Shown here: positions 31,516 through 35,098 of the stretch, in pieces
Position numbering within the stretch: the stretch's first letter is position 1
Layout: each line of letters opens with the position of its first letter
DNA from: Anaerolineales bacterium
Lineage (GTDB): Bacteria > Chloroflexota > Anaerolineae > Anaerolineales > UBA11579
Length of the DNA: 64,000 nucleotides
Direction of reading: 5' to 3'
NCBI GenBank assembly: GCA_021463845.1
Contig: JAJTXV010000003.1
Location: 1-64,000, forward strand
Program-made: the position numbers and the translations under genes
The notes under the pieces: model-generated
Told to the model about the DNA's origin: nothing
The model's input: only the letters and a program-made list of their open reading frames with translations
The model's database searches: none

Positions 31516-32802
31516 TTAACCGGCCGTTGCGGCTGGCTCGGCGGCAGGCGACTGCTGGCTGGGGTGGCCTTTTTCCACGCTCATCACCGCCGGCAAAAAG
31601 AAGCCCAGCACGCCGATCAGCATGCATACCAGGCCGCCGGCCATGTACCACGACTGCACGCCGAACTGGTCCGACAAAGGGCCGGACAGCACCAGGCTGA
31701 TGGGTGAGGCGGCGGTGGCCACGCTGCCGATCAGGGTAAAGACGCGGCCCTGCATGTTGGGGTCCACCGCGGTTTGGAAGATGGCGCCCAGCGAGCCATT
31801 GGTGACCGGCACGGCAATGCCCACGCCAAACATGCTGGCGACCGCCAGCAGGAAGGCGCTGGGCGGCACCACACCGACGATGAAGGAGAACAGGCCGATG
31901 CCAATGATGCCCACCAGCACGGTGGCCACCTGGCGCTTGAAGCCGCCCCACGCGCCCAGCATCAGACCGCCCACGATCACCCCGACGCTGAAGACCGCGT
32001 CAAACAAGGCCAAGTCTTTCACCCCACCCTCGAAGTATTGCGTGATCAGCAGCGGGGTCAAGGCGCCGGCCGGAGTGAGCATGAAATTGATGGCGGTCGC
32101 CATGAGCAGAATGATGAGCAAGCCTCGCCACTGAAAGACGTAGCGAAGGCCGGCCCGGAAATCCTGCCAGAAGCTGGTCGGCTGGGTGCCGGCGGCTGGC
32201 TTCGGCGGCTGTGGCACCTGGAAAAAGAACAGTGGCACCACCGCCAGCATGGCGGTGACCACGTCTACGGCCAGCACGCCCTGCATGGGCAGCAGCTCCA
32301 GTAGCAAGGCGCCCAGCGGGGCGGCGATGATGTTGAGGCCGCCGCCCAGCATTTGGTTGACGCCCTGGATGCGCGCCAGATGGCGCTTGGGCACCATCAG
32401 CGAAGTGGAAGCGGCCATGGCCGGGCCGTGGAAGCTGCCGCCCAGCGAGCGCAGGAACATGAGCACGTAGATGTGCCAGATCTGCACGAGGTCGAGCGCG
32501 AACAGGATCGCCAGGGTCAGCGTAAGCAGGGCGATGCTGGTGTCGGCGATCATCATGATGCGGCGGCGGTTGCCGCGGTCTACGAAGGAGCCCGCCAAGG
32601 GGCCGAGGAAAATGCTGGGCAGCAAGGCCACCAGGGTGGCGGTGGTCAGCACCACCGCCGAGCCGGTTTCGCGGGTCAGGTACCACACCAGCGCAAACTG
32701 CACCAGCTGGCTGCCAAGAATGGAAAAGGCCTGGCCGGTCCAGATGGTGAAGAAACGGCGCTGCCAGTTTTGTTGCTCGATCGGATCTGCTTGTTGAGTC
32801 AT
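31516..32802 (-). CDS. MefA-like MFS exporter (second of tandem pair)
   Basis: A 428-residue, 12-helix major facilitator of the group containing the macrolide exporter MefA. The opening WQRRFFTIWTGQAFSILGS, then VWYLTRETGSAVVL, and the LGPLAGSFVDRGNRRRIMMI loop resemble MefA closely in pattern. It follows a paralogue by 44 bp with an AGGAGAG ribosome site. Whether it exports a drug or a native metabolite cannot be told from sequence. Confidence 0.85.
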   Translation of the reverse strand: MTQQADPIEQQNWQRRFFTIWTGQAFSILGSQLVQFALVWYLTRETGSAVVLTTATLVALLPSIFLGPLAGSFVDRGNRRRIMMIADTSIALLTLTLAILFALDLVQIWHIYVLMFLRSLGGSFHGPAMAASTSLMVPKRHLARIQGVNQMLGGGLNIIAAPLGALLLELLPMQGVLAVDVVTAMLAVVPLFFFQVPQPPKPAAGTQPTSFWQDFRAGLRYVFQWRGLLIILLMATAINFMLTPAGALTPLLITQYFEGGVKDLALFDAVFSVGVIVGGLMLGAWGGFKRQVATVLVGIIGIGLFSFIVGVVPPSAFLLAVASMFGVGIAVPVTNGSLGAIFQTAVDPNMQGRVFTLIGSVATAASPISLVLSGPLSDQFGVQSWYMAGGLVCMLIGVLGFFLPAVMSVEKGHPSQQSPAAEPAATAG

Positions 32803-32846: not shown

Positions 32847-34124
32847 TTAGCCCTTGGCGGCCTGTTGAGCAGGCCGTTTGGAAGGTTCGGGGCGGCCGTC
32901 TTCCAGATCGCGCACGGCGGGGATCAGGAAGCCGAACACGCCCATCACGGCGCAGATGCCGCCGGCCACCAGATACCACAGCGGCACGCCGTATGTATCG
33001 ACGATGGGGCCAGCCAACAGCAAGCCTACTGGGGCCATGGCGCTGGCCAGGCTGATGACAAGTGAGAACACGCGGCCCTGGCGGGCTGGGTCGACGGTGG
33101 CCTGCATCACGGCCCAGAAGGCGCCGTTGGATAGCGGCAGCATGAGGCCGGCTAACAGCGTGCAAGCCAGCGCCAAGGTAAATGCACTCGGCGGCAGCAA
33201 GCCCATCAGGCCGAAGGCGAAACCCAATCCCAGCAAGCCGAGCTGCGAGGTGTAGATGCGGCGCTTGAAGCCGCCCCATGCACCCAGCAGCGCGCCTCCC
33301 AACACAATGCCAAGCCCCCACAAACCTTGCAGCCAGCCAAGCTGGATCACGCCCTGCTCAAAGTGCTGGGTGACCAATAATGGCAACAATGAGATCGCCG
33401 GGCTGAAGAGCACATTGATGAGCATGGACATGCCCAGCAACAGCATCAGCCCCGGCCAGGTGACTACGTATGAAAGACCATCACGAAAATCTGCCCAGAA
33501 GCCAGGTTTGGCTTCGGCTTGCGCGGGTGCGGGCTGTGGAATGCGCACGGGCAGCACCGCCAGGATGGCGATGGTGGCTGTGACGATATCAATAGCCATC
33601 ACGCCCTGGGTCGGCAGGAATTCCAGCAGGAAGGCGCCCAGTGGCGCGGCCACCACGCTCAGCCCGCCGTTGAGCATTTGATTTACGCCCTGAATGCGAG
33701 GCAGATGTTCCTTAGGAACCATCAGTGATGTTGAAGCGCTGAAGGCCGGGCTGTGAAAGCTCTGCCCCAGAGAGCGCAGGCCGAGCAACACATAGATATG
33801 CCAGATCTGCACCACGTCGAGCGCGAACAGCGCCGCCAGCACCAGGGTGGCGATGGCGATGCCGGCGTCCGACAGGATCATGATGCGCTTGCGCACGCCG
33901 CGGTCCACCAGCGAGCCGGCCAGCGGGCCGAGCACGATGTTGGGCAGCATGGCCACCAGCGTAGCGGTGGCCAGCACGGTGGCCGAACCCGTCTCGCGGG
34001 TGAGGTACCAGACCAGGGCGAACTGGACCAGCTGGCTGCCGAGCAAGGACAGCGCTTGGCCTATCCAGACCTGGAAGAATGGCCGCTTCCAGCCTGTTTG
34101 AGGCTGTGTTTCTGAGTGGATCAT
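32847..34124 (-). CDS. MefA-like MFS exporter (first of tandem pair)
   Basis: A 425-residue paralogue of the next gene with the same motifs (FQVWIGQALSLLGSQLVQFA, VWYLTRETGSA, LAGSLVDRGVRKRIMI). I use the ATG at 34124; a TTG three codons upstream is also open. Neither has a ribosome binding site. A leader peptide gene ends 15 nt upstream, so translation of the exporter probably depends on ribosomes that finish or stall on the leader. See the finding on leader-controlled efflux. Confidence 0.85.
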   Translation of the reverse strand: MIHSETQPQTGWKRPFFQVWIGQALSLLGSQLVQFALVWYLTRETGSATVLATATLVAMLPNIVLGPLAGSLVDRGVRKRIMILSDAGIAIATLVLAALFALDVVQIWHIYVLLGLRSLGQSFHSPAFSASTSLMVPKEHLPRIQGVNQMLNGGLSVVAAPLGAFLLEFLPTQGVMAIDIVTATIAILAVLPVRIPQPAPAQAEAKPGFWADFRDGLSYVVTWPGLMLLLGMSMLINVLFSPAISLLPLLVTQHFEQGVIQLGWLQGLWGLGIVLGGALLGAWGGFKRRIYTSQLGLLGLGFAFGLMGLLPPSAFTLALACTLLAGLMLPLSNGAFWAVMQATVDPARQGRVFSLVISLASAMAPVGLLLAGPIVDTYGVPLWYLVAGGICAVMGVFGFLIPAVRDLEDGRPEPSKRPAQQAAKG

Positions 34125-34139
34125 GAACCGCAAGAAGGC

Positions 34140-34181
34140 CTAGAAGAAGAATTTGAAACGAGAAAGAAAAGAAATGAACAT
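34140..34181 (-). CDS. Putative leader peptide MFISFLSRFKFFF
   Basis: A 13-codon reading frame on the minus strand with an AAGGAG site (34193-34188) six nt before its ATG, downstream of a strong promoter and 15 nt upstream of the MefA-like exporter. Six of 13 residues are Phe, and residues 8-10 are Arg-Phe-Lys, fitting the +X+ motif at which macrolide-bound ribosomes stall in known leader peptides. The stop TAG is at 34142-34140. That it is translated is an inference. Confidence 0.55.
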   Translation of the reverse strand: MFISFLSRFKFFF

Positions 34182-34202
34182 TTTTTGCTCCTTATTGCAA
34201 GA

Positions 34203-34231
34203 ATAATAAACATAAGTTTAGATTTTGTCAA
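34203..34231 (-). promoter_or_regulatory. Promoter of the leader peptide / MFS operon
   Basis: Consensus TTGACA (34231-34226), 17-bp spacer, TATTAT (34208-34203) in an AT-rich region. The start site would be about 34196, just before the leader ribosome site. Confidence 0.88.
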
Positions 34232-34269
34232 TACCCAATTTATAAATTCTTAGGTTTTATGTATGATTT

Positions 34270-34297
34270 TTGATTTTTTGGCAAAATAGCTTACACT
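34270..34297 (+). promoter_or_regulatory. Leaderless promoter of the alpha/beta hydrolase gene
   Basis: TTGATT (34270-34275), 16-bp spacer, TACACT (34292-34297), ending 6 nt before the ATG at 34304. Divergent from the MFS promoter. Confidence 0.65.
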
Positions 34298-34303
34298 TTC
34301 GGC

Positions 34304-35098
34304 ATGACTGAGACCAAAATCCCCCCTTTGCACGTCCAAAGCAGCGGCTCCGGCACTCCGGTGCTGCTCATCCACGGGTTTCCCTTCACCAGCCGCATGT
34401 GGCAGCCTCAGCTTCACGGGCTGGCTGACACCTGCCAGATCCTGGCGCCTGACCTACCGGGCTTCGGCGATAGCCCGGCCGCCCCGCCGCCGCACACGGT
34501 GGACGCGCTGGCGCAGGCCTGCATCGCCGTATTGGATGCGCAAGGCATCCGCGGGCCGGCGGTGGTAGGCGGCCTCTCCATGGGCGGCTACATTGCCCTG
34601 GCGATCGCTCGCCTGTACCCGGAGCGCCTGCGCGGCTTGATGCTGCTCTCCACCCGGGCCGGGGCAGACGGCGCCGAGGCCAAAGCCAACCGCGACAAGG
34701 GCATTGCCACCGCCCAGGAGCAAGGCCCGGCCCCAGCCGGCGAAGGCATGTTTCCCAAACTGCTGGCGCCCGGCAATTACGCAGCCCAGCCGCAGACCGC
34801 CGAGGAACTCAAGGGCATCATGGCCGGCGCTACCACCGAGGGCGTGGTGATGGCGCTGACCGCTATGCGTGACCGCCCAGACTCCACCCCGCTGCTGAGT
34901 AGCATCCGCGTGCCGACCCTGGTTGTGCATGGTGAGGAAGATCAGGTGATCCCCAAGAGCGAGGCCGAGGCGATGGCGGCCGCCATCCCTAACAGCCAAC
35001 TGCAGCTGATTCCAAACGCGGGGCACGTGCCCAACTTGGAGCAAGCCGAAAAATTCAATGAGGTGGTGGCGGCCTTCATCCGCAGCGTAAACACCTAA
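34304..35098 (+). CDS. Alpha/beta hydrolase
   Basis: A 264-residue alpha/beta-fold hydrolase. Oxyanion-loop HG at 24-25 (LLIHGFPFTSRMW), nucleophile Ser92 in GGLSMGGY, acid Asp213 in HGEEDQVIP and His241 in NAGHVPN complete the triad. Family members include esterases, lactonases and C-C hydrolases; the substrate cannot be assigned. It is followed 30 bp later by a PfkB kinase with its own promoter. Confidence 0.88.
   Translation: MTETKIPPLHVQSSGSGTPVLLIHGFPFTSRMWQPQLHGLADTCQILAPDLPGFGDSPAAPPPHTVDALAQACIAVLDAQGIRGPAVVGGLSMGGYIALAIARLYPERLRGLMLLSTRAGADGAEAKANRDKGIATAQEQGPAPAGEGMFPKLLAPGNYAAQPQTAEELKGIMAGATTEGVVMALTAMRDRPDSTPLLSSIRVPTLVVHGEEDQVIPKSEAEAMAAAIPNSQLQLIPNAGHVPNLEQAEKFNEVVAAFIRSVNT

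Follow-up and report, generated by a model that had tools for sequence, protein, structure and literature searches.

A conserved short leader frame ahead of a paired MFS exporter operon in a genus of uncultured Anaerolineales

Described leader peptides and coupled genes

The known leaders of mef, msr and erm genes act via hairpins and terminators (PMC4335068; PMC10314930). The locus described here resembles the leaders of mef(E)/mel and erm(D)/erm(K) (MTASMRLR, MTHSMRLR) in having a short frame led by a Shine-Dalgarno (SD) site near the transcript start, a basic-X-basic (+X+) motif in that frame and an efflux gene downstream (PMC4335068). The mef(E) gene has a 327-nt leader region with a terminator and hairpins, whereas the gap between leader and exporter here is 15 nt or less, no attenuator was found, and the motif is not universal. 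The msrDL leader (MYLIFM) is also a short hydrophobic peptide (PMC10314930), but it works through an intrinsic terminator, and none was found at the leader of the window, the 64,000-nt stretch of DNA analyzed here. Of the features that mark the erm/mef/msr type, a short SD-led leader conserved in relatives is present, and no attenuator or terminator was found.

Two further lines of earlier work bear on the locus. Macrolides and ketolides arrest ribosomes at +X+ motifs with X in the P site, and stalling by erythromycin can tolerate loss of the motif charges (PMC8298421). In termination-reinitiation coupling, efficiency drops steeply with distance, and the optimum is an overlap or a few nt between stop and start (PMC10666635; PMC12548453). 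Our locus is like such coupled genes in that the stop of an SD-led short frame overlaps the start of a gene without an SD or comes a few nt ahead of it. It differs in that the upstream partner is a 13-codon peptide rather than a protein gene, and in that the gaps reach 15 nt. In the literature searched, we found no work on leader-controlled drug exporters in Chloroflexota.

The leader locus and its distribution

The promoter, the AAGGAG site, the 13-codon frame and the SD-less exporter start are present as the preliminary description had them, and all lie on the minus strand (Table 1). The promoter is the top site in 5 kb, and the predicted transcript start is about 15 nt ahead of the leader ATG. 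The leader reads ATG TTC ATT TCT TTT CTT TCT CGT TTC AAA TTC TTC TTC TAG, and its +X+ motif is R8-F9-K10.

Table 1. Positions of the leader locus and exporter pair in the window
Feature	Coordinates	Strand	Remarks
Sigma-70-like promoter, TTGACA-17-TATTAT	34203..34231	-	TTGACAAA, invariant in 9/9 leader-bearing genomes; 11/12 consensus matches
Leader SD site, AAGGAG	34188..34193	-	Nine nt past the -10 box; invariant in 9/9 leader-bearing genomes
13-codon leader frame, MFISFLSRFKFFF + TAG	34140..34181	-	ATG at 34181, stop TAG at 34142-34140; genus-conserved; variation mainly at third codon positions
Gap from leader stop to exporter 1 start	34125..34139	-	15 nt; no SD, no stable conserved hairpin
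Exporter 1	32847..34124	-	MFS_1 family, 425 aa, without its own SD; ATG at 34124, preceded by tctaggccttcttgcggttc
Exporter 2	31516..32802	-	Paralogue of exporter 1, 428 aa, with its own SD (aggagagag); start preceded by aatcaggagagag

The two exporters are 56% identical, and both pass the Pfam MFS_1 gathering cut-off (105-122 bits vs 33.4). They had been called a MefA-like pair. The paralogous MFS_1 pair is there, and the macrolide exporters Mef(A) and Mef(C) are among its top-scoring named drug exporters in NCBIfam. The Mef(A) scores of 252-267 bits are nevertheless far below the curated cut-off of 675, and the pair is also far under the curated cut-offs for Mef(B) and Mef(C). Because the Mef(A) score falls so short, we use "MefA-like" for a resemblance and assign no substrate from it. 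In three genomes (G003, G010 and G009; loci L050, L055 and L056) the second exporter clusters with the exporter 1 lineage and not with exporter 2 of the window, which indicates that the tandem pair was rebuilt there by a separate duplication or replacement.

The genus, one of uncultured Anaerolineales (Chloroflexota), is represented by 11 genomes, and 140 relatives outside it were compared. The leader occurs at the orthologous locus in nine of the 11 (the window's genome and eight others), next to the same divergent alpha/beta-hydrolase gene. Conservation of the frame among relatives had been proposed as a check, and the short frame is indeed kept across the genus, together with its SD. The peptide of the window is found in G000, G005, G007 and G008. 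The others are MFISFLSRFRFLF in G001, MFISLLLRFRFLF in G009 and G010, MFIYLSQFFRFLH in G003, and a leader of 44 codons beginning MFNSSLSSFTFLFQQ... in G002. All of this evidence is MAG sequence, and the leaders in it amount to about three to five independent lineages.

Outside the genus, no leader was found in the 140 relatives, and exporter homologues there showed no comparable leader by the scan applied to the genus. Within it, the leader is absent from G004 and G006, where SD-like sites (gaggaaga, ccggag) precede the exporter. G004 (L053) has an 11-codon aromatic-rich frame, MYYFLVTYKIY, with no clear SD, between a TTGACA/TACAAT promoter and the SD-bearing exporter; it is possibly a decayed or an independent leader. 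A pattern of SD plus ATG-Phe-Ile gave eight sites in 151 genomes, all at the exporter locus, against three scattered sites in the reversed control; the pattern misses the G002 leader, which begins MFN. Judged by these comparisons, the leader frame is real, conserved and restricted to the genus. It constitutes a conserved 13-codon element, presumably translated, in an uncultured lineage.

Other places for such a leader were also considered. A widespread leader family was rejected: SD plus MF...RF(K/R) in 298 genomes of the class matched the window and three unrelated-looking sites, no more than the reversed control. One ABC-F gene is present in most genomes of the genus, with no leader seen and with gene starts that could not be fixed. 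The window has 51 crude gene calls, and the leader is the sole credible, well-led short ATG frame that ends at the start of one of them; one further short-frame match sits inside an ORF.

Hand-over of ribosomes from leader to exporter

The stop of the leader is placed close to the exporter in every genome that has it. The gaps from leader stop to exporter ATG are 15, 12, 14, 14, 15, 3, 3, -1 and 2 nt. Across the 9/9 genomes the stop thus reaches 1 nt into the exporter at one extreme and ends 15 nt ahead of it at the other, while the relative frame varies. In all nine, then, the stop overlaps the downstream start or lies within the roughly 15-20 nt expected of coupled frames. The possibility that ribosomes read through the leader stop into the exporter was rejected, since in several relatives (gaps 14, 2 and -1) leader and exporter are not in the same frame.

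The best explanation, and one we hold to be somewhat probable, is that the leader is translated and, through termination-reinitiation, passes its ribosomes on to the exporter. The stop-to-start geometry fits such a hand-over, as the preliminary description had suggested. The leader would be a translated 13-codon frame at the 5′ end of the exporter mRNA, onto which the strong AAGGAG would load ribosomes. These would terminate at, or up to 15 nt from, the start of exporter 1 and then restart there, because no SD precedes exporter 1. Exporter 2, which is SD-bearing although it belongs to the same operon as the SD-less exporter 1, would be translated from its own site. The frame with its SD, the conservation of the frame and its spacing are read directly from the genomes; from them we infer translation, coupling and any regulation.

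G002, with a rearranged version of the locus, is the most informative case. By the tree, exporter 1 is gone and the exporter present falls in the exporter 2 clade. The leader, lengthened to 44 codons, ends 2 nt ahead of this exporter 2 orthologue, which has no SD, whereas its orthologues in sister genomes have one. The extension of the leader and the loss of the SD fit termination-reinitiation. The added part of the leader (L052, G002:C2:440000-448500) is a GC-rich stretch of 31 codons (QQAHAADRAAAYPSRFHTLTGLARTLIANFF).

The missing SD of exporter 1 has to be read against the rest of the window. An SD-like site before a start (within the first 50 codons) was seen for only 24/51 crude gene calls, whose starts are uncurated, and this suggests that initiation without an SD is common in this genome. 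A missing SD alone is therefore a weak signal here, and initiation at the exporter might not need coupling. Five genomes have gaps of 12-15 nt, which is long for reinitiation to be efficient. Given such gaps, and with about half of the gene calls SD-less, we infer rather than observe that the exporter depends on the leader.

Peptide constraint and the case for drug sensing

The peptide sequence helps to separate ribosome loading from a role of the peptide itself. In the seven genomes with RF(K/R)F leaders, third codon positions vary at 9/13 sites and first and second positions at 4/26 (Fisher p = 0.0014, a value that, like the two p-values given next, assumes independent columns and comes from about three lineages: the window group, G001 and G009/G010). 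The bias survives in pyrimidine-only columns (6/8 vs 3/20, p = 0.005) and hence is not accounted for by a U/C-rich tract alone. For the group's more distant pairs, pairwise simulation put p at about 0.002-0.02. The bias is no longer significant once G003 and G002 are included. By these measures the seven RF(K/R)F leaders are constrained in the peptide itself, which is why the leader probably tunes the number of ribosomes that reach the exporter.

A purely constitutive ribosome loader, in which the SD, the start and the stop position count and the peptide is irrelevant, is a clearly less probable alternative. Spacing is held in all nine genomes while residues, charges included, drift in G003 and G002, and short upstream frames are known that only deliver ribosomes (PMC12548453). 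It is the third-position bias of the seven RF(K/R)F leaders that such a loader would leave unaccounted for. If the leader only loads ribosomes, it would be a natural case of a short coupled frame substituting for an absent SD site.

A compound that binds the exit tunnel might stall ribosomes, or slow their termination, on RF(K/R)F and thereby meter their hand-over to an exporter that removes the compound, or the survival of its mRNA; we regard this as unlikely. The same low probability applies to the form that such sensing would take here: a Chloroflexota leader that senses the ribosome through coupled termination and reinitiation, with no hairpin attenuation. If the peptide does sense a ribosome-binding compound, this would be leader control without attenuator hairpins.

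The preliminary description took the +X+ motif as a sign of drug sensing. R-F-(K/R)-F is retained in seven of the nine leaders, with one Lys/Arg exchange among them that preserves charge. It is lost in G003 (F-F-R) and G002 (S-F-T). The neighbor-gene tree joins G002 to the window group and G003 to G009/G010. The motif must then have been present in the ancestor and lost on two occasions, or else have arisen twice. By chance, +X+ occurs in about 11% of the 13-mers from the window's proteins.

No conserved attenuator hairpin or terminator between leader and exporter was found by folding, Rfam or terminator scans: Rfam gave no match in 33600-34700, and the terminator scan found none in the leader-gap stretch. 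RNAalifold suggested that the leader SD pairs weakly with codons 10-12. A hairpin hiding the exporter start or the leader SD was rejected, as the energies were no better than those of dinucleotide shuffles and the fold was not common to the relatives.

The position of a stalled ribosome matters as well. The edge of a ribosome usually appears in toeprints 16 nt past the first base of the P-site codon. With this distance and a stall at codon 9, the modeled ribosome reaches the leader stop, and the exporter ATG is 0-4 nt beyond in G003, G009 and G010; for the other short leaders the ATG is 13-16 nt beyond the edge. The proposal that a stalled ribosome frees the exporter start runs into this geometry, with an edge 0-16 nt from the start and no hairpin found that it could open. 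A ribosome against or on the exporter start would be sterically unlikely to open it and would block it instead, clearly so in those three genomes.

An inducible switch of the erm/mef type, with a macrolide- or ketolide-bound ribosome stalling at R8-F9-K10 and boosting exporter translation, is in our estimate quite improbable. In its favor, seven of the nine leaders keep the charges, such motifs arrest drug-bound ribosomes, erythromycin stalling may survive loss of the charges (PMC8298421), and the mef(E), msr(C) and erm(K) leaders are of the same kind (MTASMRLR, MTASMKLRFELLNNN, MTHAMRLRFPTLNQ; PMC4335068). Against it stand the two leaders that lack the motif, the chance frequency of +X+, the failure to find an attenuator or terminator, the blocking position predicted for the stalled ribosome and the scores of the exporters under the Mef cut-offs. 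On these grounds the macrolide switch is weakly supported.

Drug-stalled ribosomes near the 5′ end might instead shield the mRNA from decay, or block reinitiation and so shut the exporter off. The predicted transcript start is about 15 nt or less from the leader, and leader-dependent shielding has been reported for mef(E) (PMC4335068). Silencing triggered by a drug would be senseless for a resistance pump, however, and the motif of either variant is not universal; we find both very doubtful. Sensing keeps some probability because of the mRNA protection reported for mef(E) and because charges are not strictly needed for erythromycin stalling. Counted jointly, induction and mRNA protection would leave antibiotic sensing unlikely but not negligible. 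An attenuator gauging phenylalanine supply is highly improbable: six of the 13 codons in the window's leader are Phe, but the relatives' leaders hold four or five, no terminator or alternative hairpins of the pheL type were found, and the exporter has no link to amino acids.

Finally, the AT-rich divergent intergenic stretch on the far side of the promoter (34232-34303; AAGTGTAA...ATTT...AAAAATCAAAAA) is strongly conserved through the genus. It is perhaps a regulator site common to the leader locus and the alpha/beta-hydrolase gene at 34304.
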